A stretch of DNA of 40,634 bases from Planctomycetaceae bacterium (lineage in GTDB: Bacteria; Planctomycetota; Phycisphaerae; SM23-33). Below the pieces are notes generated by a model. The model was not told the origin of the DNA and ran no database searches. It saw only the letters and a list, made by a program, of their open reading frames with translations. Shown in pieces: positions 7,869 through 19,222 of the stretch; within the stretch, counting starts at the first letter, position 1; every line of letters starts with the position of its first letter. The stretch lies in contig JBDKTA010000012.1 of NCBI GenBank assembly GCA_039680605.1, positions 1-40,634 of the forward strand, read 5' to 3'. A program made the translations under genes and the position numbers.

Positions 7869-7897
7869 TTGCATATTGCCGACGGTTGGGGCATACT
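7869..7897 (+). promoter_or_regulatory. Possible promoter for the large beta-propeller gene
   Basis: TTGCAT (7869-7874) and CATACT (7892-7897) are 17 bases apart, about 34 bases before the ATG at 7931. The -10 is only a partial match, so this is a moderate prediction. Confidence 0.35.
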
Positions 7898-7930
7898 TGT
7901 ACGCGACATTCACGGCCAGGAATTTCCCGC

Positions 7931-10900
7931 ATGAAATACGTTTACGCCGCGCTGCTGGGGGTCGTTTGCTTTGTTGGCAGTCCGGTCCGGGCCGATGCTC
8001 CGGCCGGTCCGCCCGAGGCGTACATTCCGGCAGAGTGGCTCAAGGCCAACGTCGACTGGAAGCCCACCTGGGATGAGACGCTCAAGGCCAACACGCTCCA
8101 GAAATTCCAGGCCGACCTGGCCAAGGACAACGCCCTGAAAGGCCTGGCCGACCGGATCGCGCCGCTGCATCGCGTCGAGATGATCAAGGCCGCCATGCTG
8201 CGCTGGCCCGACCGCGCCAACCGCATCGCCGGATACGCCGAGATCGCCCACGCCTTTCAACAGGCCGGCAGCAATTATTGGCGAAGCTACTGGGGCTGGA
8301 AGATGGTGCAGGATTTTCCCGATGACGCCGCGGCCGTCACGCAGGGTTACCAACACATGCTCGGCTGGAGCTTCGGGCAATACACACACTGGGGATGGTA
8401 CGGCTATTTCGTTGCCCCCGAGTGCCGGGACTTCGAGTTTGCCATCAGCGAGATCATCGCCCGCCACAAGGCCGGAAAGCTGGGCGAAGGCTCTCCAGCC
8501 GTCTCGATGGCCTACAGCTACCGGGCCTGGGAAGCGTTCGACTTCTGGAACTACGGCGCCTACTACGCGCTGCTGGGGCGTGAGGATAAGACGCGATCGG
8601 TCATCGCCGACGAGAGCCTGATCAGCTACCTGGGCCTTTCGCAGATACCCGGCGGCGACGGCGACGTCATGTTCGACCTTAACGACCGCGGGCAGAGCCA
8701 GCTCGACGCCGAACTCCGCACGCGATGGGAAGCCGCCCAGCACAGCGAGATGTTCGGCTCCGACGCCTCGTCGCTGCGCCCGGACGAAGTGCAGGTGCTG
8801 CTGGACCTGGCGGCCGCCTCGGGGGCGCACGTGCGTCAGGGCGGCAACTACGTGCCGTTCTGGGTGGTGATTGACCAGCACCTGCTGGGCCTGGGCCACG
8901 CTCGCCTGGCGCCGCTGGCGGCGGCGCACGAATTGGCGGCGCGTTCTCGCGCTTCGGCGGCGGCCGTCAGCGGCGACGTCAACGACCTGATCGCGGCCTT
9001 TCGCCGCTATCCTTTCGCGCCGTCGCTTCACCGGCTGATGGTGGAGCTGGCCGAGCGGGACGTCTGCGCGGGCAACTGGGTGCGCGCCGTCTCGCTGGTG
9101 CGAGACGTGATCAAGCACTCGGCCGACGCGGCGCTGACAAGGCAGGCCCACGCCGTGCTGTGGTTGGCGCTGGCCCAGCAGAGCGGCAATCGTGGCGAGC
9201 TCACGACGGCCATGAGCCAACTGCCCGACGACGCGACCATTCCCTGGCGCGGCGCCGATGCCGCGGCGGCGAAGGTCAAGGCCGCTTTGCTCTCGCAGAT
9301 GGCCGTGCTGGAGACGCAGCGCGCCGTTCGCCTGGCGGGGCTGAGCGTGCGGCGGGTGCAGTTGCCGGCCGACTGGCCCGCTCGCCAGTGGAACCTCGAC
9401 GGACCCATCGCCGATCGCGGCAGCCACGCCCCGTGGCCGGTGGCCCAGGTGGACGTCGCCGGCGAGAGCCTCTTCGTCAGCCATCCCGGCGCCATCGCGC
9501 GATTCGACGCCAACTCGCCCAAGGCCGCCTGGACGCAGATCCTGCCGCCCCAGCCCCTGCAGACGCCCTGGTGGGACGAAGCCACCTCGCGATACATGGC
9601 CACGGGGATGTGGATGCAGGCCATCATGATCCGCCGCCCGGTGCGGACGTCGGCGGGCAAAGAACTCCAGCCTCGCGCGGCGCTGTACTACCTGATGACG
9701 CCGTCGATCCCCGCGTACATCCAGGCCGTCGACGCCGCCAAGGGCGCCCAGCTCTGGACCACGCGCGGACGCGAGACCTGGGAAGACCTCACGCCCATGA
9801 GCCGCCCGACCTTCGCCGGCGGGCGCCTGTACGTGCTGGCCGGCCCGTCAAAGATGGACCGCCTCTTCGCCGTGCGCGAGAGCCCCAACACCCCGCTGCC
9901 GACGAGCCTGGTCTGCCTCGACGCCCAGGACGGCCGCGTGCTCTGGCGACGCTCCACCGGATGGATCGAGAACACGCACCTCGACCTGGCGCGTGGGTCG
10001 GCCGCGGTGCTCGTCCACCAGGGGCGGGTCTACTGCTGCAACAACATGGGCATCATGTCCTGCTTCGACGCCTACGACGGCCTGACCGTCTGGGTGCGCC
10101 CGTACCCGCCGGCCGTCCAGCGAATGGGCGGGTACGAGTCGCTCAACCTCGTCCGCGAAGGCACCTGCCCGATCATCACGCCCATGCCCGCAGCCCTGGG
10201 CGCGGGAGACATGTTGCTGGCGGCCCCGCGCGACCACACCGGCGTCGTGACGTTCGACAGCCGCAGCGGCAAGCTGCTCTGGCAGACGCCGCTGGTGCCC
10301 TCGGACCGCCTCGTCGGCGTCAGTGGCAGCGTGATAGTCGCCATCAGTCAGTACTGGCTGACGGCCTTGGACATCACCGGCGGGCGGCAGCTCTACTGCC
10401 GCGAGTTTCCCGCCGGCACGGGCGGCCAGGCGGCGCTGCTCGGCGGCGACGTCGTGCTGGCCTCGGGCGGCAAGCTCTACCGCATCCAGGCCTCCACCGG
10501 CAACACGCTCGAAGAGACCGGCCTGGAGGCCGGCGCCAATGAAGAGCCCGTGATCTGCCCCGACGGCACGATCGTGCTGGTGGGAGCTCCGCCGATGACG
10601 GCCGCCAAGGCCCCGCCCACCGCCGGGCGCGACATCAAGCTGCCGCTCAAGCAGGTCTGGTCGCTGGCGTGCGAGTCGCCGGCGGTGCTCTTTGGCGACG
10701 CGATCGGCGCATCCGAAGACTCGTTCGGTTTCGTCAGCGGGCGGCGGATCGGGATGATCCGCTCCAAACCGAATTGGGAACTGGCCTGGGACAAGCTGCT
10801 GCCTCTGCCGCCGCAGGGCGTCGCCAAGGCCGGCGGGCGGCTGCTGGCGTCGATGATGTGGACGCTTGACGCCCACGACGGCGCCGACGGCAAGACGCTG

Positions 10901-11830
10901 TGGTCGACGAAGCTGGGGCTGCTGCCCTTCGTCATCGGCGGCGACGACAAGACAGTCTACGCCGGCGGCCGCGGGTGGGGCGGCTACTTCGCCACCCTCG
11001 ATGGGGCCACGGGCAAGGTGATCTGGTCGGGCAATCCCGGGTGGGACCAGCGGGTTGGCATCGACCAGTTCCAGCGGAGCCGCCTGCAGCGCGAGGGCGA
11101 CGGTTCGGCCACGCTGCGGTGCCTGGGCAACGTCTCTGACGCCGCCGGAAGCGGCGCCGGCGAGATCGTGCTCAATGCGGCCACCGGGCGGGCCAAGAGT
11201 CTGCGTCCGCTGCTGGCGCCGGGGACGGGCAGTTGGAGCCCGCCGAACTGGGACACCAGCGGCCTGGCGTACATCGTCTCGAAGTGGCCCAAGGGCAAGG
11301 TGGCCGCGTTTGGCCACGACGGCGCGACGGACGTTGCGGCCAAGTGGCAGCGCGAGCTGAACCTCGAAGACCATCGCTGGCACTACAGGCTCTTCGGCGC
11401 GCACTACCGCGACGGCAAGATCTACGTGCGCCTGGCCGGGCAGATGTTGGTGTGGGACCCGGCCACGGGCAAGGAGCTTGCGCTGGACATGACGCGAGGC
11501 GGCGGCGTGATCGAGCCGTTCATCTTCGCCTTCAAGCAGATCGGCAACCGCATCATCGTCGTCAACGGCTTCACCAACCAGCGACCCGCCGCACCGGGCA
11601 AGCACTCGCCCGAGCCGACCAAGCCCGACCAGTGGAAGATGTTCGTCGACATCTTCGACGCGACGACTGGTCAACCGCAAGGCCGCCAGGAACTGCCCGG
11701 CGTGCTGTGCTGCATCTCGCTGATCGCCTACCAGGAGATCGCCGGCTACGACACCCAGGTCCAGATCCTCGACGGTTCCATCGTCGTCACCGACATCAAC
11801 GGCATCCACGTCTTCGCCGGCGAACCGTAA
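7931..11830 (+). CDS. Large exported PQQ-type beta-propeller protein
   Basis: 1299 residues. The ATG at 7931, with AGGA nine bases upstream, begins a clear signal peptide (MKYVYAALLGVVCFVGSPVRA). The N-terminal 450 or so residues are helical and rich in Trp and Ala. From about residue 480 onward there are repeated units with the PQQ/BamB-like pattern: AVDAAKGAQLWTTRG, CLDAQDGRVLWRRSTG, SCFDAYDGLTVWVR, TFDSRSGKLLWQT, TLDGATGKVIWSGNPG. Such propellers form outer-membrane or periplasmic scaffolds and, in some enzymes, bind PQQ. No catalytic dehydrogenase motif was noticed. It is related through most of its length to the 36720-39497 gene, which lacks its last third. Substrate or partner is unknown. 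Confidence 0.85.
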   Translation: MKYVYAALLGVVCFVGSPVRADAPAGPPEAYIPAEWLKANVDWKPTWDETLKANTLQKFQADLAKDNALKGLADRIAPLHRVEMIKAAMLRWPDRANRIAGYAEIAHAFQQAGSNYWRSYWGWKMVQDFPDDAAAVTQGYQHMLGWSFGQYTHWGWYGYFVAPECRDFEFAISEIIARHKAGKLGEGSPAVSMAYSYRAWEAFDFWNYGAYYALLGREDKTRSVIADESLISYLGLSQIPGGDGDVMFDLNDRGQSQLDAELRTRWEAAQHSEMFGSDASSLRPDEVQVLLDLAAASGAHVRQGGNYVPFWVVIDQHLLGLGHARLAPLAAAHELAARSRASAAAVSGDVNDLIAAFRRYPFAPSLHRLMVELAERDVCAGNWVRAVSLVRDVIKHSADAALTRQAHAVLWLALAQQSGNRGELTTAMSQLPDDATIPWRGADAAAAKVKAALLSQMAVLETQRAVRLAGLSVRRVQLPADWPARQWNLDGPIADRGSHAPWPVAQVDVAGESLFVSHPGAIARFDANSPKAAWTQILPPQPLQTPWWDEATSRYMATGMWMQAIMIRRPVRTSAGKELQPRAALYYLMTPSIPAYIQAVDAAKGAQLWTTRGRETWEDLTPMSRPTFAGGRLYVLAGPSKMDRLFAVRESPNTPLPTSLVCLDAQDGRVLWRRSTGWIENTHLDLARGSAAVLVHQGRVYCCNNMGIMSCFDAYDGLTVWVRPYPPAVQRMGGYESLNLVREGTCPIITPMPAALGAGDMLLAAPRDHTGVVTFDSRSGKLLWQTPLVPSDRLVGVSGSVIVAISQYWLTALDITGGRQLYCREFPAGTGGQAALLGGDVVLASGGKLYRIQASTGNTLEETGLEAGANEEPVICPDGTIVLVGAPPMTAAKAPPTAGRDIKLPLKQVWSLACESPAVLFGDAIGASEDSFGFVSGRRIGMIRSKPNWELAWDKLLPLPPQGVAKAGGRLLASMMWTLDAHDGADGKTLWSTKLGLLPFVIGGDDKTVYAGGRGWGGYFATLDGATGKVIWSGNPGWDQRVGIDQFQRSRLQREGDGSATLRCLGNVSDAAGSGAGEIVLNAATGRAKSLRPLLAPGTGSWSPPNWDTSGLAYIVSKWPKGKVAAFGHDGATDVAAKWQRELNLEDHRWHYRLFGAHYRDGKIYVRLAGQMLVWDPATGKELALDMTRGGGVIEPFIFAFKQIGNRIIVVNGFTNQRPAAPGKHSPEPTKPDQWKMFVDIFDATTGQPQGRQELPGVLCCISLIAYQEIAGYDTQVQILDGSIVVTDINGIHVFAGEP

Positions 11831-12018: not shown

Positions 12019-12657
12019 TCACGCGGTCACGACGGCGCCGTCTTGAATGTCGAAGATGACGTCGGCCAGCGCCTGCGCCTCGGCGAGATTGTGGGTGACG
12101 TGCAGGACGGTGGCGCCGGCGACGCGCTGGACCTGCTTGAGCAGGTCGATCATGCCGCCGCGCGTATCGTCGTCGAGGGCGCTGAGCGGTTCGTCCAGAA
12201 GCAGCGTTCGCGGGCCGAACGACAGCGCCCTTCCGAGGGCGACGCGCTGGCGCTCGCCGCCGCTGAGCCCGCGCGGCGTGCGATCCAGCAGGTGAGAGAT
12301 CCCCAGCAGTTCGGCCAGTTCGCTCGTGCGATCCGCGATGCTCCTGGCGTTGGCTTTGCGGATCTCCAAAGCGAACGCCAGGTGCTGCCGCACCGTCATC
12401 GTCGAGAACAGTGCGCCGTCCTGGGGGACGTAACCGATGCCTCGCCCCGCCGGCGGCGAGTGCGTCACGTCGCGGCTGTCCAGACGGATGATCCCCGACT
12501 CGATCTCGCGCAGGCCGATGATGCTCTCCAGCAGCGTCGTCTTGCCGCTGCCGGTCTTGCCCATCAGGGCGGCGTAGGCGCCGGTGGGCACGTCCAGGCA
12601 GACGCCCTTCATGGCGAAGACTCCGGCTCGGATTGTTATGTTCTCAAGGGAAATCAT
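12019..12657 (-). CDS. ABC transporter ATPase (molybdate/tungstate type)
   Basis: A 212-residue nucleotide-binding subunit that would energise the permease encoded upstream. Walker A GKTGSGKT is at residues 33-40, the Q-loop is YVPQDG, the signature is LSGGERQR, Walker B is LLLDEPLSALD and the H-loop is HVTHN. Length and sequence style fit the short ATPases of tungstate or molybdate uptake (TupC/WtpC-like). The longer ModC carries an extra C-terminal ligand domain, absent here. The ATG at 12657 starts directly at the canonical MISLENITI strand. An upstream extension would run into a palindromic repeat. It is the last gene of a three-gene minus-strand operon. Exact ligand cannot be told from the ATPase. 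Confidence 0.9.
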   Translation of the reverse strand: MISLENITIRAGVFAMKGVCLDVPTGAYAALMGKTGSGKTTLLESIIGLREIESGIIRLDSRDVTHSPPAGRGIGYVPQDGALFSTMTVRQHLAFALEIRKANARSIADRTSELAELLGISHLLDRTPRGLSGGERQRVALGRALSFGPRTLLLDEPLSALDDDTRGGMIDLLKQVQRVAGATVLHVTHNLAEAQALADVIFDIQDGAVVTA

Positions 12658-12667
12658 TATTCGTTTG

Positions 12668-12737
12668 GTTAACGGCGGAGCTTGCTCCGCGGGGTCTCGC
12701 ATCCGAAAAACGCGTCGAGCAAGCTCGACCGCTAATG
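12668..12737. repeat. Palindromic repeat, family C, inside the transporter operon
   Basis: GTTAACGGCGGAGCTTGCTCCGC on one side and GCGTCGAGCAAGCTCGACCGCTAA on the other. It fills nearly the whole spacer between the permease stop and the ATPase start. It probably leaves a strong hairpin in the operon mRNA and may lower ATPase expression or protect the upstream message. Confidence 0.78.
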
Positions 12738-12738
12738 T

Positions 12739-13665
12739 TTACAGCGACAGTCTCCTCGCCCCCCACAACCGGGTGACCATCAGCACCGCCACCGCGGCGA
12801 CGAGCATGATGATCGATACGGCCACGGCCGCCTCGATGTTGCCGATGCTCATCTCGAGGAAGACGCTGGTCGAGAGCACTTCGGTTTTGTTCCGCGTGGC
12901 GCCGGCGAAGATCAGCAGCGGGCCGAACTCGCCCAGGGCGCGGGCCCAGGCCAGCGTCAGGGCTGTCAGGATGCCGCTGCGTGCTTCGGGCAGCACCACG
13001 CGCATGAACGCCTGCATGCGCGTGCAGCCCAGCGCCAAGGCCACCTGCTCGCAGCGCGGGTCGATCTGGTCGAAGGTGGCCTTCATCGTTCGCACGGCGA
13101 ACGCCGCGGCCACCGCCACCTGGGCGAGAATCACCGCCGGAATCTGGTAGACGACGAGGCTGTTGATCGATCGCCCGTCGACGCTTGCGGTGAAGGGCCA
13201 GAACTGGAAGAGGATCAGCAGGCTCAGACCCACCACCAGCGGCGGCAGGACGATGGGGATGTCGAGGATGGCATCGACGAGGCCTCGCCCGCGGAACTTC
13301 ACGCGCGACAGCAGATAGCCCATCGGCACGCCCACCCAGACCGACACGATGGCCGAAAGCGAACAGGCCAGCAGGCTCAGCATCACCGCGTAGCGGATTT
13401 CGCTCTTGCCCAGCGCCTGGACGATGGGGTTTTCCGCCAGCAGCGCCATCCACGGCTGGGGTGAAACCCAGGCCTTCTCGACGGTTTCCTTGAGCATATA
13501 GATCACGTCGCCCAGCAGCATCAGGACGATCAGCAGCACGTACGAGCCGCCAAGGATCCCCATCCCGGCCAGGAACCCGCGATCGCGCAGGCGGATCGCC
13601 TCGTCGCGCCGTGCCGCGGCGAGATGCGTGGGTTCGAGTTGTGCGGTGGCGATCTCTTGAGTCAT
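12739..13665 (-). CDS. ABC transporter permease (molybdate/tungstate type)
   Basis: Inner-membrane channel subunit, 308 residues from the ATG at 13665 (an alternative ATG at 13698 lies inside a palindromic repeat and is less likely). About six membrane segments are visible, starting with GILGGSYVLLIVLMLLGDVI and a second near MLSLLACSLSAIVSVWVGV. The EAA coupling loop is EQVALALGCTRMQAFMRVVLPEA, and ALGEFGPLLIFAGATR beyond it is typical of ModB/TupB/CysT-like permeases. It lies between the binding protein and ATPase genes. Family is secure; the ligand is inferred from the whole operon. Confidence 0.88.
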   Translation of the reverse strand: MTQEIATAQLEPTHLAAARRDEAIRLRDRGFLAGMGILGGSYVLLIVLMLLGDVIYMLKETVEKAWVSPQPWMALLAENPIVQALGKSEIRYAVMLSLLACSLSAIVSVWVGVPMGYLLSRVKFRGRGLVDAILDIPIVLPPLVVGLSLLILFQFWPFTASVDGRSINSLVVYQIPAVILAQVAVAAAFAVRTMKATFDQIDPRCEQVALALGCTRMQAFMRVVLPEARSGILTALTLAWARALGEFGPLLIFAGATRNKTEVLSTSVFLEMSIGNIEAAVAVSIIMLVAAVAVLMVTRLWGARRLSL

Positions 13666-13688
13666 GTCGTGATCACAATCCTGACAAC

Positions 13689-13768
13689 CTTGCCACAAAG
13701 ATCACAAAGGGCACGAAGAGAATCTTCATTTCCCATTCTTCTTCGTGTTCTTTGTGATCTTTGTGGCA
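13689..13768. repeat. Long palindromic repeat, family E, between binding protein and permease genes
   Basis: About 33-bp inverted arms: TTGCCACAAAGATCACAAAG on the left and CTTTGTGATCTTTGTGGCAA on the right, around a short AT-rich loop. In the operon mRNA it would form a very stable hairpin directly after the binding-protein gene. This could give more binding protein than permease, as is common in ABC operons. Confidence 0.85.
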
Positions 13769-13775
13769 AAGCTTC

Positions 13776-15311
13776 TTATTCCTTCGGGGCGGTTGCCGCT
13801 TGCGGCTTGGCGTCTTTTTCTTTGTACCGGAAGTTAAAGCCCGCCGCTTCGAAGTTCTCGCGCGCTGCGGTGATGGCGTTAAAAAACCGCCGCGCCAGGT
13901 GCTTGTTCGCGCTGCTGCGCGAGATGCTCAAGGGCTGCACCGCCTTGGCGTGCGGCGAGTCGATCCTGACCAGATCGATCCGCCCGCCCTCGGCGATCGT
14001 GTCGGTGCGATAGGCGATGGCCGCATCGACCGACTTGGTCGTCACGGCCGGCACGAGCATGGCCGACGAGGGCGCCTGCACCACGACGTTTTTCATTACC
14101 GCCTCTTCCATGCCTTCCTTCTGCAGCAGGGTCCGCGTCAAAGCGCCGATGGTGCACTGTTCGGGCTGGCCCACGGCCAGGCGCACGCCGGGGCGGGCCA
14201 GGTCGGCCAGCGACTTGATGGACGTATTGCCCTTGGGGACGGCGATGACGATGTCGGCGTCGGAGATGTCCACGTCTTCCTGGAACCAGTCGCGCACATT
14301 GTCGAGGTAGTACCGGTCGCAGGCCATGTACACGTCGGGGAAGTTTGCGCTGGCCGGACCCATTGTCTGCATCGTGCCGGTGAGCATTCCGCAGCCGTTG
14401 TAGAGCGTTTCGATCTTTACGCCCTCGCGGGTCTCGAAGGCCTTAACGACGCTGTCCACGGCGCGGAGGTTCACCGCGCCGCAGAAGAACTTGAGCACCG
14501 GCCGAACCGCCCAGGCGTCGCCGTCGACGGGGGAGAAGCCGGCGGCTTTGAAGTGTTTCAGGCCACGGTCGCGGGCGCCGAGATATCGCATGAACGTCAG
14601 GGCGGCGGTGGGCTGGCGGGAGCTCTTGAGCACGGCGATGGACATTTCCTGAACGGCCGCTTCAAGAATGGGCACGTGAACGGCCTTGAGCTGTTCGTAC
14701 TGTCCGACCGTCGAGTCCCAGACGATCCCGGCGTCGATGGCCCCGATGGCGACGTCGTTGGCGATATCCGAGACAGTGGGTTTGAACACGCCGTGGTCCT
14801 GCACGTGGCGTCGCAGGGGCTCCCACTGGCCGCTGGGCTCCAGGGCCTGCCGCACGGTGCGCCCGATGGAGGCGGCCTCGGGGTTGCCCATCGCCACGCG
14901 CAGGCCGGGCTTGAGCAGGTCTTCGAGGGTGGCGATGGATGTGTTGTCGCGCCGCACGACGATGACCGGCATCATTCGCGCCAGTGGCAGCACCTCGGCC
15001 AGTAGGCCCTGCGACTGGGCGAGCTGAATGTAAGTCTGGTCGGCCCCCAGGTACAGGTCGCCGGCCCCCGAGGCCTTGAGGCTGCTCAAAAGCGTGCCCG
15101 ACCCGCCGTACTGCACCTCGACCGCCACGCCGTATTCCTGGCGGTATTGCTTGATCGCCGGCTCGACGGCCTTTTGCGAACCGGCCGCACAATACAGCAT
15201 CAGCGACCGCTCGCTCGATATCGACGTGTGTCCGGATAGCCATGCCAGCCCGCCGACCAGAGCGGCCGCAGCCACCAGGCTGCCCAAGAGCATTTTCCAT
15301 TCAGTTGGCAT
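13776..15311 (-). CDS. Double-domain extracellular substrate-binding protein (ModA/WtpA/TupA-like), membrane-anchored
   Basis: 511 residues, roughly twice the length of a normal binding protein. After an N-terminal membrane anchor (WKMLLGSLVAAAALVGGLAW, no lipobox Cys) come two tandem copies of the periplasmic-binding fold. Domain 1 (about 37-265) has LMLYCAAGSQKAVEPAIKQY, YGGSGTLLSSL and GLRVAMGNPEAASIG. Domain 2 (about 270-500) has LKFFCGAVNLRAVDSVVKAF, YNGCGMLTGTM and GVRLAVGQPEQCTIG. The aligned segments differ clearly, so the duplication is old or the domains are specialised. Family members bind molybdate or tungstate. It is the first gene of the operon. The ligands of the two domains are unknown. 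Confidence 0.88.
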   Translation of the reverse strand: MPTEWKMLLGSLVAAAALVGGLAWLSGHTSISSERSLMLYCAAGSQKAVEPAIKQYRQEYGVAVEVQYGGSGTLLSSLKASGAGDLYLGADQTYIQLAQSQGLLAEVLPLARMMPVIVVRRDNTSIATLEDLLKPGLRVAMGNPEAASIGRTVRQALEPSGQWEPLRRHVQDHGVFKPTVSDIANDVAIGAIDAGIVWDSTVGQYEQLKAVHVPILEAAVQEMSIAVLKSSRQPTAALTFMRYLGARDRGLKHFKAAGFSPVDGDAWAVRPVLKFFCGAVNLRAVDSVVKAFETREGVKIETLYNGCGMLTGTMQTMGPASANFPDVYMACDRYYLDNVRDWFQEDVDISDADIVIAVPKGNTSIKSLADLARPGVRLAVGQPEQCTIGALTRTLLQKEGMEEAVMKNVVVQAPSSAMLVPAVTTKSVDAAIAYRTDTIAEGGRIDLVRIDSPHAKAVQPLSISRSSANKHLARRFFNAITAARENFEAAGFNFRYKEKDAKPQAATAPKE

Positions 15312-15535: not shown

Positions 15536-16843
15536 TCACTCGTCCAGACACGCCACCTCCGGCAGGGGCTTGATGAATTCCTGCCGGAGACTATACGTAT
15601 ACGCTCCCTGAGTGGGGACCAGAAGTATGTCCCCTTCGCGGATATCTTCGCCGAAGTACCCGTAGCCCCACAAGTCGTGTGGTGTGCACAGCGACCCCAT
15701 CACCATGCACGCCCGCTCCGTCAGGGCCGGACGCGTCAGGTTGATCAGCGGAAAGTAGTCCGTCTCGAACCGCTCCCACCCGACGGCGTTGGCGCCGGCG
15801 TCGGTAATCACCAGGTCGTCGGCCTTGCGGTCGATCACAGTCACCAGCAGGTGCATGGCGTTGTGGCACAGCCACCGTCCCGGCTCGGCGCAGAGGCGGG
15901 CATCGACGTGCGGGGCCAGGTGCTTCTGCTGCGCCGCGGCGATGGCGGCTGCGAAAACCTCCAGCGGCTGGGCCGCCAGGCGGTAGTGCGTCAGCGACGC
16001 CTGCCATCCTGCCGTGGTGGCCGCGCGGAGCATGCCCGCCGGCGTGCCGGCCTCCTGAAGCCACTCGCCCACGCCCGGCCAGAAGCCCCCGCCCATGTCG
16101 ATGAACTCGATCGCCTCGCGCTGGGCCGGCGACAGTGTCGCCAGCGTTTCGCCCAGCAGCGCAATGAACTGCACCTGACGCTGCGGGTTGAGGTTCCAGC
16201 TTGTGTGGAACTGCAGCCCGCAGAGCCGCACGCGGTCGCACCCTTCAGCCGCGCTCATGAACTCGCCCAGGCGCGAGAGATTAATCCCGAACTTGCGCCA
16301 CAGGCCGTGCTCGAGCGTCGTCAGGCGCACGCCTGCGCGGATGGTGACTGCCGCCGCGGCGGCCATCGCCTGCAGGCGGGCTAACTCGCCGAAGCTGTCG
16401 ATGAGCACCACGACGCGGGCGGCGTTGTCCAGGGCGAGCTGCATCTCGGCGGGGGTCTTTCCGGGTCCGCTGAAGACGATGTCCTCGCTGCCTGCCGCCA
16501 GGGCCATCTGCAACTCGATGCCGCTCGAGACGTCCAGGCCGATCCCCTGGGCGACCAGCGTCTGGGCGATCAGCGGGCAGTTGTTGCTCTTGACGGCGTA
16601 GTAGGGCCGGAACTGCGGCACGTGCTTGCGGAAGGTGGCGACAAACTCGCGTGCCGCCGCCCGCAGCGCCGCCTTATCGACCGCGTACAGCGGGCTGCCA
16701 TGCCGCGCCGCCATGTCGAGGAACTGCCCGCGCCAGTTGACGAACCCCTCGACAAACGCCCGCAACTCGCCGGCGTCCAGTTGCGGCGTCGGTTGAGCGA
16801 GCAGCTCGGCGGCGGATTTCAAGATGGCGTCTACGTCATGCAT
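15536..16843 (-). CDS. Fold-type III PLP-dependent decarboxylase
   Basis: 435 residues of the diaminopimelate/ornithine decarboxylase family (alanine-racemase fold). It would remove a carboxyl group from an amino acid or amino-acid conjugate. The PLP lysine is Lys85 in YYAVKSNN. Further motifs are HTSWN (where LysA has a FHIGS-type motif), FIDMGGGFWPG, the arginine of CAEPGRW, and the catalytic cysteine Cys386 in GSLCTPHD. The CTPxD form differs from the CESxD of LysA and is, from memory, common in secondary-metabolite decarboxylases. The start ATG at 16843 lacks a clear Shine-Dalgarno sequence. It is the last gene of a TetR/SpeD-like/GNAT/ATP-grasp cluster; a family C repeat fills the 95-base gap to the ATP-grasp gene. 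Substrate unknown; LysA itself cannot be excluded. Confidence 0.88.
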   Translation of the reverse strand: MHDVDAILKSAAELLAQPTPQLDAGELRAFVEGFVNWRGQFLDMAARHGSPLYAVDKAALRAAAREFVATFRKHVPQFRPYYAVKSNNCPLIAQTLVAQGIGLDVSSGIELQMALAAGSEDIVFSGPGKTPAEMQLALDNAARVVVLIDSFGELARLQAMAAAAAVTIRAGVRLTTLEHGLWRKFGINLSRLGEFMSAAEGCDRVRLCGLQFHTSWNLNPQRQVQFIALLGETLATLSPAQREAIEFIDMGGGFWPGVGEWLQEAGTPAGMLRAATTAGWQASLTHYRLAAQPLEVFAAAIAAAQQKHLAPHVDARLCAEPGRWLCHNAMHLLVTVIDRKADDLVITDAGANAVGWERFETDYFPLINLTRPALTERACMVMGSLCTPHDLWGYGYFGEDIREGDILLVPTQGAYTYSLRQEFIKPLPEVACLDE

Positions 16844-16938: not shown

Positions 16939-18270
16939 TTAGTCTTCCTCATATTCAACGACAAATCGCCCGGCCAGTTCGGTGCATTGTTGCTCGATAT
17001 TTACGGGGAGCATGGGCGAGACGCCCATGCTACTCACGGGCGAGACGCCCGTGCTACTGGGCTTAAAGATCGCGTGGCCCAGGAGGCGCGAGTCGTAGTC
17101 GGCGGGGGGGAGGCGCACCTCGTGGCCGGGGGCTCGCTTGAGATACACCTCGCGCACGCGCGGGTCGGCACTGACGGCCGAGGCGTCCAGGCGTAGGATC
17201 ACGCCGCTGCGCTTTGCGAACAGTCGCAGGCCCACCATCTGCTTCCACGCCGCCGGCGGAGGCACGCGGACCGGCTCGCCGGCGGCGAAGTTTACCGCGG
17301 CCGCGAGCATGTCCATGCCGCAGCAGGCCCGCAGCAGCGGGGGCAGGCAGTCGCCGCCGGGGCGCGGGGCGATCTCGATCATCACCGCCTGGCCGTCGCG
17401 CATGATGAAGTCGAGCATGCAGATCGACCGCTCGATGCCGACGGCGCGGCACGCGGCTGCGAGCTGCGCGGTGAACGCGTCCGGCGGCAACTCCGGCGGC
17501 GGGTCCGGCACGATGTACGCCGTACACGTGCCGAGGGTCTGTGAGTGGTCCATGATCTTGCGGGCGACGCGGATGATCCGCGCGCGGCCGCCTTCGATCA
17601 CGAAGTCGCAGCTATACTCGGGGCCTTGGACGAACTCCTCGATGACGGCCACGCTGCGCGAGTCGATCATGGCGCCGTTGGCCGCCCCGGCGCTGTACAT
17701 GCGGGCGTCGTGATGCTCGGCCAGGCGGGCGGTGATGGTCGCCAGGGCGTCGGCGGCCTCGACGGCGGTGCGGCAGAAGAAGATCAATTCGCTGCCGCTG
17801 CCGGTGAGGGGTTTGAGCACGGCCGGACCTGCGATCGAGGCCATGAAATCGGCGGCGTCGGCGGACGTTCGCACGAGGCGTGCCTTGGCGGTGGGCAATC
17901 CTGCGGCCGTCCAGGCCTGTTTGCACGCCAGCTTGCTCCGACACGCCGCCACGGCGGCGGCGGAGGGGTAGGGCAGGTGCATCGCCGCGGCCAGCGATGA
18001 GGCCAGGGCCATCGATTCGTCGTCGAAACATGCCACGCCGACGATGTTGTGGCCGAACCGCACGGCGTGCGCCTGCACCCGCGCCAGGAGTTGGTCGTGG
18101 GGTTCGGACAGATCGGCCAGCAGTTCCTGCTCGGGCGGCGGGGGCGGTTCGGCGGCGTCGTGGCGGTGGGCGCGGGAGGTCAGGAAGATCGCTCGATCCC
18201 CCAACTGCTGACGAATGAGATCGACGTAGTCCGCCGTGGTGCCGGCCACCAGGACGCAGTCATTTAGCAC
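16939..18270 (-). CDS. ATP-grasp ligase with in-frame palindromic repeat
   Basis: A carboxylate-amine/thiol ligase-type enzyme, activating a carboxylate as acyl phosphate with ATP. Visible parts: an N-terminal pre-ATP domain (CVLVAGTTADYVDLIRQQLG), CRSKLACKQAWTAAGLPTAKA, the lysine of GPAVLKPLTGSGS, EEFVQGPEYSCDFVIEGG, and the metal-binding MLDFIMRDGQAVMIEIAPRPGGD (Glu and following). I prefer the GTG at 18270, which has GGAG eight bases upstream and overlaps the transferase stop by 11 bases, giving 443 residues. The ATG at 18294 is the alternative. About 17 residues near the C-terminus (STGVSPVSSMGVSPMLP) are an in-frame family A palindromic repeat (17009-17053), after which VNIEQQ resumes normal sequence. 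Substrates unknown. Confidence 0.9.
   Translation of the reverse strand: MLNDCVLVAGTTADYVDLIRQQLGDRAIFLTSRAHRHDAAEPPPPPEQELLADLSEPHDQLLARVQAHAVRFGHNIVGVACFDDESMALASSLAAAMHLPYPSAAAVAACRSKLACKQAWTAAGLPTAKARLVRTSADAADFMASIAGPAVLKPLTGSGSELIFFCRTAVEAADALATITARLAEHHDARMYSAGAANGAMIDSRSVAVIEEFVQGPEYSCDFVIEGGRARIIRVARKIMDHSQTLGTCTAYIVPDPPPELPPDAFTAQLAAACRAVGIERSICMLDFIMRDGQAVMIEIAPRPGGDCLPPLLRACCGMDMLAAAVNFAAGEPVRVPPPAAWKQMVGLRLFAKRSGVILRLDASAVSADPRVREVYLKRAPGHEVRLPPADYDSRLLGHAIFKPSSTGVSPVSSMGVSPMLPVNIEQQCTELAGRFVVEYEED
17009..17053. repeat. In-frame family A palindromic repeat within the ATP-grasp gene
   Basis: AGCATGGGCG-AGA-CGCCCATGCT (17009-17031) followed by CACGGGCG-AGA-CGCCCGTG (17035-17053). 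It is the same family as 6912-7041. It is translated as MGVSPM/TGVSPV units and keeps the frame of the host gene. Confidence 0.9.
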
Positions 18271-19222
18271 ACGCTGCACTCCTGGACTCTTCATGGCATG
18301 CGTGCTCGGTGTGGTGGGGGATGTTGCTCAGCAGGTACAGCGGTCGCGGGGTCAGGTGGAAGAGCGTCTTCCACGAGAAGTCGCCGCAGAGGAAGTCGAG
18401 CTGGTCGAACCGCTCGCGGCACCCGCGGCGCATGTGGTACACGTTGATCAGCTTGGCCGCCCCCTGCACCGACCGGTCGGCCCCGCCGGCGACCAGCGTG
18501 TAGTGGTTGTTGTAGACGATGCCCATGTCGACGGCCGCCGCCTCGCCGTCGACCAGCAGCGCCGTCATGCGCAGCCACCCGTTCTCGCGAGCCAGCTCCA
18601 TAAGGCTGCGGAAGCCTTCGCGGAACCGTTCGTCGTAGAAATACGACCGCTCGCCGAAGGCGGCCATGTTCAACTCGACCATCCGGTCGAAGTCGGATGC
18701 ATCGTCCAGCCGCCACGTGACGCGCTGCTCGAAGGCGTCGAGTTCGCGGCGGATGCGCTTGGCCGACTTGTGCGAGAACTCGCCCCAGTAGTTCTCCATG
18801 TCGTACCCGTATCGCGGCGGCTCGAAGAGATACCCGATCTCGTCGATCTCGCAGCGGTCGGTCGCGCCGTCGGCTGCCGGCAGCAGGTACCGCAGGTGGC
18901 GCGGCCCGGGGCACAGGGCCAGCAGGCCCTCGAGCATCGCCTCATCACCGGCCAGCAGGCGGTTCTGCTCGAGCCAGGTCTTTCCGACCCAGGTCTCGCC
19001 GGGGAAGTATCCGTAGCAGCCTTGCTCGGCGATCCAGCTCAGCGGCAGCAGTCCGCGCACGAGGGGACCTTCCTCGGCCGCGATGAACAGGGGCGGTCGC
19101 TGGAAATGCCGCTGAAAGCACATCCGCACGTCCCAGCGGTCGGTGAACGATTCCTGCGCGACGGCGCGCTGCCAGAGGTCCCGGCACGCGTCCAGGTCCG
19201 TGATGACACGGTATCGATACAC
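18260..19222 (-). CDS. GNAT-fold acyl/aminoacyl transferase (FemAB/CelD-like)
   Basis: 320 residues, the size of the double-GNAT FemAB/CelD group, whose members transfer aminoacyl or acyl groups. The C-terminal domain reads ALLVDGEAAAVDMGIVYNNHYTLVAGG, then AAKLINVYHMRRGCRERFDQLDFLCGDFSWKTLF, which is the characteristic 'fixed body, then family signature FDFLxGDxxxK' pattern. An N-terminal GNAT half (YRVITDLDACRDLWQRAVAQESFTD) is present. The ATG at 19222 lies 3 bases after the SpeD-like stop, so the two are translationally close. Its stop overlaps the ATP-grasp start. In the cluster it could acylate an amine made by a decarboxylase. The acyl donor is unknown. Confidence 0.82.
   Translation of the reverse strand: MYRYRVITDLDACRDLWQRAVAQESFTDRWDVRMCFQRHFQRPPLFIAAEEGPLVRGLLPLSWIAEQGCYGYFPGETWVGKTWLEQNRLLAGDEAMLEGLLALCPGPRHLRYLLPAADGATDRCEIDEIGYLFEPPRYGYDMENYWGEFSHKSAKRIRRELDAFEQRVTWRLDDASDFDRMVELNMAAFGERSYFYDERFREGFRSLMELARENGWLRMTALLVDGEAAAVDMGIVYNNHYTLVAGGADRSVQGAAKLINVYHMRRGCRERFDQLDFLCGDFSWKTLFHLTPRPLYLLSNIPHHTEHACHEESRSAACAK

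Follow-up and report, generated by a model that had tools for sequence, protein, structure and literature searches.

Which ligand, or which pair of ligands, is carried by an ABC transporter whose binding protein contains two ModA-like domains in a single chain? The question is raised by an operon on the reverse strand of the window, by which we mean the whole stretch of 40,634 nucleotides analyzed here, from a Planctomycetaceae bacterium of the Phycisphaerae lineage. A first-pass annotation had described the binding protein as a membrane-anchored pair of tandem ModA/WtpA-like domains with differing pockets, which could supply a single permease with two substrates or hold one substrate twice.

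Architecture of the binding protein and its operon

The motifs cited in that annotation (YCAAG and FFCGA, YGGSGTL and YNGCGML, GLRVAMGNPE and GVRLAVGQPE) were all found in the protein, and its halves are homologous: residues 1-272 and 269-511 share 29% identity over 231 columns (BLASTP, E 7e-26), and SBP_bac_11 was placed twice with a whole-protein E value of 8.9e-77 in Pfam. Both halves also model as binding-protein folds. The proposed duplication is real, and the protein consists of two ModA-type domains in one chain that arose by duplication. An AlphaFold2 model computed with 36 relatives as input (mean pLDDT 91.9, pTM 0.83) contains a helix at residues 3-26 followed by two well-folded domains, both of which have the ModA fold in comparison with solved structures (domain 1, residues 34-263, Z 20.8 to 4kd5; domain 2, residues 269-496, Z 21.8 to 3gzg and 7tav). 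Of the earlier double name, the WtpA part seems less apt, as the best named-family match was the modA model TIGR01256 (119.5 bits summed over the two domains, cut-off 62.5). Structures of WtpA can be aligned as well, with Z values of about 20, and no WtpA binding-protein model was among the named-family matches. The modeled helix together with the positively charged N-termini of the relatives suggests that the chain is indeed tethered to the membrane, with a cleaved signal peptide as a possible alternative. The positions of all features are compiled in Table 1.

Table 1. Positions of the binding-protein operon and its key residues in the window
Feature	Position	Strand	Evidence or conservation
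Two-domain substrate-binding protein, 511 aa	13776..15311	(-)	ORF open from ATG; SBP_bac_11 twice; halves homologous; AlphaFold model
Residues 3-26, hydrophobic N-terminal helix that probably anchors the chain in the membrane	15234..15305	(-)	Inferred from model helix and charged N-termini of relatives
Domain 1, residues 34-263, ModA-like pocket, Ser71 kept, Trp198 at ModA ligand-Tyr position	14523..15212	(-)	
Domain 2, residues 269-496, ModA-like fold, cysteines in the pocket	13824..14507	(-)	
Codon of Cys307 (GCG motif)	14391..14393	(-)	36/36 first set; 47/47 profile-found rows
Codon of Cys331 (ACD motif)	14319..14321	(-)	36/36 first set, biased by search pattern; 47/47 profile-found rows
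Codon of Cys386 (QCTIG), main clade only	14154..14156	(-)	36/36 first set; 12/47 profile-found rows
ABC permease, ModB/CysT/NifC-like, 77 bp downstream of binding-protein gene	12739..13698	(-)	BPD_transp_1
Codon of permease Cys112	13363..13365	(-)	
ABC ATPase, 227 aa, 36 bp after permease gene	12019..12702	(-)	ABC_tran

The expectation that one permease serves the tandem domains agrees with the single ModB-like permease gene that follows in the operon. A binding protein, a BPD_transp_1 permease and an ABC ATPase encoded in one operon make up the set of a type I ABC importer, and transport is presumably directed inward. A permease is present in 36 of 37 related loci, and the exceptional locus (L011) ends soon after the binding-protein gene. 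Both partner subunits scored below the cut-offs of named families. The permease reached 185.1 bits against TIGR01581 (NifC-like, cut-off 210.3) and 153.9 bits against TIGR02141 (ModB, cut-off 182.6), and is about equally close to the sulfate family and to others. For the ATPase, the best named match was WtpC with 210 bits (cut-off 440) over positions 1-210 of 347 only, and TIGR02142 (ModC) gave 161.2 bits (cut-off 285.05).

With ModA and ModABC (SBP_bac_11, TIGR01256), the system shares the fold of both domains (Z 20-22) and an adjoining ModB-like permease and ATPase; domain 1 has the serine loop and domain 2 the tyrosine, Tyr434. It differs in the combination of two domains in one anchored chain, the cysteines of the second pocket, the Trp in place of the ligand Tyr in domain 1 and the scores of permease and ATPase below the ModB and ModC cut-offs. 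A plain ModABC system was not adopted as description, given these equivalog cut-offs and several hosts in which no Moco or nitrogenase genes were detected. Tandem binding domains with different pockets and one translocator are also known from GlnPQ (6h30); according to the accessible part of its description, these bind amino acids and form one polypeptide with the permease, whereas the ModA-type chain in the window is separate from it (PMC8025302). Publications describing a binding protein of planctomycetes with two ModA-like domains or with a cysteine pocket were not among the results of our literature searches.

Conserved cysteines in the second pocket and in the permease

A scan of genome contigs located this two-domain protein at 37 loci, most of them from planctomycetes, besides some Lentisphaerae, Pontiellaceae and Puniceicoccaceae and one Chitinivibrionales MAG. 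In a profile search, an essentially complete protein (covering at least some 380 of the 512 profile positions, a limit chosen by eye) was detected in 48 of 392 Planctomycetota genomes spanning 16 families, with 17 of the 48 from one family; a fragment at a contig end (G281) was dropped from this number, and two proteins incomplete at one end (G274 and G158) were kept. The fusion, for which occurrence in other planctomycetes had been named as a check, is thus no sequencing artefact seen only here, as it is present in 36 aligned complete relatives (alignment A1, from which the partial L039 and L043 were dropped) as well as in the 48 genomes. It represents a real, conserved family of two-pocket proteins, by which ABC importers of the ModA type gain a further variant.

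The peptide patterns used to collect the first set of relatives include YMACDRYY, which contains Cys331, so that the invariance of this residue among L009-L045 is partly due to construction. Conservation was therefore recounted on rows found by the profile search, which used no cysteine-bearing pattern; this second set of 47 binding-protein and 43 permease rows overlaps with the first in lineages and differs in search method, with a profile built from alignment A1. Cys307 and Cys331 were retained in all 47 rows, while Cys386 (Ser in 30 rows) and Cys277 (present in 9 of 47) were not conserved. Tyr434 of domain 2, at the position of the ligand tyrosine of ModA, was likewise invariant (47/47). 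In domain 1, Ser71 was kept in 45 of 47 rows, the other two being gaps, and Trp occupied the ligand-tyrosine position in 43 of 47.

The alignments place Cys307 at the serine of the second contact loop of E. coli ModA and Cys331 in the next loop. In the residue numbering of E. coli ModA, domain 1 has Gly for S12, keeps S39 and has Trp for Tyr, and domain 2 has Val for S12, Cys for S39 and keeps Tyr. In these alignments, neither domain has the oxyanion contact set of ModA, composed of two Ser, a Tyr and backbone NH groups. The two pockets are thus not equivalent by alignment: the serine is replaced by Cys307 in domain 2 and kept in domain 1, and the difference between GGSGT and NGCGM pointed out in the first-pass annotation includes this invariant cysteine. 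Oxyanion binding is still conceivable despite the residue changes, because several contacts in ModA are made by backbone NH groups. For ModA of A. baumannii, the available text lists backbone NH groups of S39, S66, V150 and V177 and the hydroxyl group of Y195 (PMC11734730).

A cysteine is also found in the permease. Cys112 was present in 37 of 37 permeases of the first set and in 40 of 43 of the second (otherwise Ser in two and Ala in one), whereas Ser (10) or Ala (2) occupies this position in 12 permeases whose neighboring binding proteins lack the cysteine pair; L073_7428, an additional ModB-like permease that is gapped in this column, was left out of the count. As both traits may be inherited together by one clade, this match is support and not proof.

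The pattern of residues leads us to favor, with a probability of roughly 40%, a dual-pocket ABC importer in which domain 2 binds a thiophilic ligand, the best guess being a soft, monovalent metal ion, for example Cu(I). The binding protein, tethered to the membrane, would work with permease and ATPase as a type I importer. Domain 1, which has kept the ModA-like serine loop, may hold an oxyanion-sized ligand. The pocket of domain 2 would have been turned into a thiol site by the pair of Cys307 and Cys331, joined by a third cysteine in the main clade, and would most likely bind the thiophilic ligand and hand it on to the permease, whose Cys112 appears to change together with this pocket. Direct contact of the domain 2 cysteines with the ligand is expected from their aligned positions, and the choice of a soft metal, Cu(I) above all, would follow from its fit to thiols.

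Two other explanations have to be weighed against these residue patterns. Very improbable in our view is that domain 2 serves in sensing or docking and passes nothing to the permease, with all transport carried out by domain 1. In the alignment of 36 proteins, 48 of 224 columns are invariant in domain 2 and 14 of 226 in domain 1, a far denser conservation such as a docking surface could have, but the permease cysteine tracks the cysteines of domain 2 and not domain 1. A serious rival, possible albeit doubtful, is that both pockets bind oxyanions such as molybdate, tungstate or a relative, and that the cysteines of domain 2 form a disulfide or redox switch that tunes the affinity. The fold and the best named matches are those of ModA, the ligand tyrosine is kept as Tyr434, and the two cysteines may simply be disulfide-bonded to each other. 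Joint inheritance in one clade could account for Cys112 and the pocket cysteines, and three of 43 Cys-type operons are without Cys112; however, a disulfide or switch leaves the membrane cysteine of the permease unexplained. A redox disulfide that lowers the affinity for molybdate was reported for A. baumannii ModA (8zj6 and 8zj8; PMC11734730), which shares the fold and has two possibly redox-responsive cysteines. In the accessible sections of that report, its C141 and C189 are located in lobe B, away from the ligand contacts, and are called unique to the species, whereas the cysteines described here are invariant in the family and one of them, Cys307, lies at a contact position. If the cysteines nevertheless act as a redox switch, the proteins would provide a family-wide case of redox-gated oxyanion uptake.

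Gene content of the hosts and the nature of the ligand

Molybdate as ligand would be in line with the presence of MoaE in 47 of 48 carriers compared to 209 of 344 other genomes. COX1 was found in 47 of 48 carriers as well, with a weaker enrichment over the other genomes (254 of 344). Since both genes reach 47 of 48 and both fit an aerobic lifestyle, co-occurrence does not separate molybdate from copper, and the p-values ignore kinship among the carriers, 17 of which are from one family. Four carriers are at odds with oxyanion binding by both pockets. The genome containing the window (G000, at 95.4% the one among the four with a known completeness) had no match to MoaE, MoeA (MoeA_N) or nitrogenase; PF00384 matched it only twice and weakly, both times in a single 1153-aa frame. 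Neither MoaE nor nitrogenase was detected in G392, G393 and G396. COX1 is present in G393 and G396; no COX1 match was obtained in G392 and G394, two carriers outside the sample, or in G117. G394 is without MoaE and COX1 but contains nitrogenase-like genes. A transporter for molybdate alone is difficult to argue in view of the carriers without detected MoaE or nitrogenase, of which that of the window is also without detected MoeA. Together with the invariant cysteine pair of domain 2, these genomes leave the view that both pockets hold oxyanions like molybdate, sulfate or phosphate unsupported. All sequenced Planctomycetes examined in a previous study use Mo, as far as its available text goes (PMC6147048), which speaks against a soft metal in general, though not for G000, G392, G393 and G396. 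No copper gene was seen adjoining the operon.

Improbable, though less so than a mere sensor or docking function of domain 2, is a thio-compound as ligand, i.e. a thiometalate, thiosulfate or a metal-thiol complex, on which the cysteines would act by sulfur chemistry. In seven of 37 loci, sulfur-carrier genes for ThiS-like/ThiF and MoeB-like proteins are located downstream of the operon, and the similarity of the permease to the sulfate family, about as close as to others, would be compatible with such a ligand. However, these sulfur-carrier genes are absent from the window and from most of the 37 loci, and no sulfur-oxidation or thio-ligand genes were recognized near the operon. A ThiS-like+ThiF protein and a MoeB-like protein are encoded downstream, for instance, at L038:9311-11167 and in L012, L026, L041, L042 and L044.

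Import of copper across the inner membrane of bacteria is poorly known, and a review from 2020 states, in the part accessible to us, that additional bacterial copper importers likely exist and are uncharacterized (PMC7558416). If a protein annotated as molybdate-binding carries a soft metal, the annotation of this operon would have to be corrected in many genomes.

Companion proteins and related tandem systems

More than the tandem arrangement, it is the cysteine pocket with its permease partner and its CxC companions that makes the family interesting. In about 14 of 37 loci, two further proteins are encoded upstream along with a LolD-like ATPase, namely f7, which bears a signal sequence, and f6, a permease of the FtsX-like type. 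C22 and the CxC motif of f7 are invariant in 14 rows, as is the ECxC motif of f6 (15/15). The signal-bearing protein was detected in 38 of 48 carriers versus 13 of 344 other genomes, and ten of these 13 hold other ModA-like matches of this kind. Its model (pLDDT 73) consists of two thioredoxin-like units and a C-terminal helix, with the bb' fragment of ERp57 as best Foldseek match (E 1.8e-5, TM 0.20), a weak to moderate similarity to PDI-type tandem domains; no Pfam family exceeded the limit in 14 members apart from two weak single matches. In the window genome, both genes reside on another contig than the operon (G000:C5:72584-73819, L080), where a frame with a ferredoxin-like CxxCxxC stretch, recognized by eye, lies nearby (L080:16411-17187).

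For a dual-pocket importer with a thiophilic ligand, the thioredoxin-like membrane protein (f7) may work with the transporter in most planctomycete carriers, and the FtsX-like permease (f6) may take part at many loci. Taken in full, such a system would be a new ABC-type importer for Cu(I) or another soft metal that combines a thiolate site of ModA fold and an oxyanion-type domain with a membrane cysteine of the permease and a periplasmic relay of CxC thioredoxin-like and FtsX-like proteins. The conjunction of all these parts is unlikely, albeit less so than a thio-compound as ligand.

In other planctomycete operons, related pairs of ModA-like domains without the cysteine pair are encoded by adjacent genes (L059, L063, L065, L067 and L068) or by fused genes (L060-L062), while L066 has an ambiguous arrangement. 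L059 lies on contig C28 of the window genome, which thus has a second system with adjacent genes (G000:C28:13093-14672; L002, L003 and L059), one of them encoding His at the position of Cys331. In a tree of the domains, four groups are each set apart from the rest by a single branch, namely domain 1, domain 2 and the a- and b-type domains of these pairs. The a-type domain joins domain 2 with a support of 96/85, the bootstrap being not fully settled. As the order a-b in the fused proteins is opposite to that of domains 1 and 2, fusion happened at least twice. These systems share the paralogous two-domain arrangement, the ModB-like permease and the ATPase, but differ in having His for Cys331 and Ser for Cys307 in the a-type domain and Ser or Ala at the Cys112 position of the permease. 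Among 13 genomes with such pairs, judged by adjacency and confirmed by sequence in nine, 12 are without MoaE and 10 without COX1. If domain 2 indeed binds a soft metal, the family would illustrate how an oxyanion pocket is converted to bind metal through thiols, and the His-type relative would provide an independent case to compare it with. One of the non-Cys systems adjoins a gene for an ethylbenzene-dehydrogenase heme-domain protein (PF09459, L063:5521-6501).

Upstream of the binding-protein gene and on the same strand, the window contains genes for a LysA-like PLP decarboxylase (15536-16843), an ATP-grasp ligase (16939-18294) and a GNAT/FemAB-like protein (18260-19222) that overlaps the ligase gene. 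They look like an operon for small-molecule or peptide ligation and, according to ORF clustering, are not common to the other loci. On the forward strand, a 1314-aa reading frame (7886-11830) has by eye the look of a PQQ-type beta-propeller, and at some related loci, L028 among them, proteins with such repeats are likewise encoded close to the operon.
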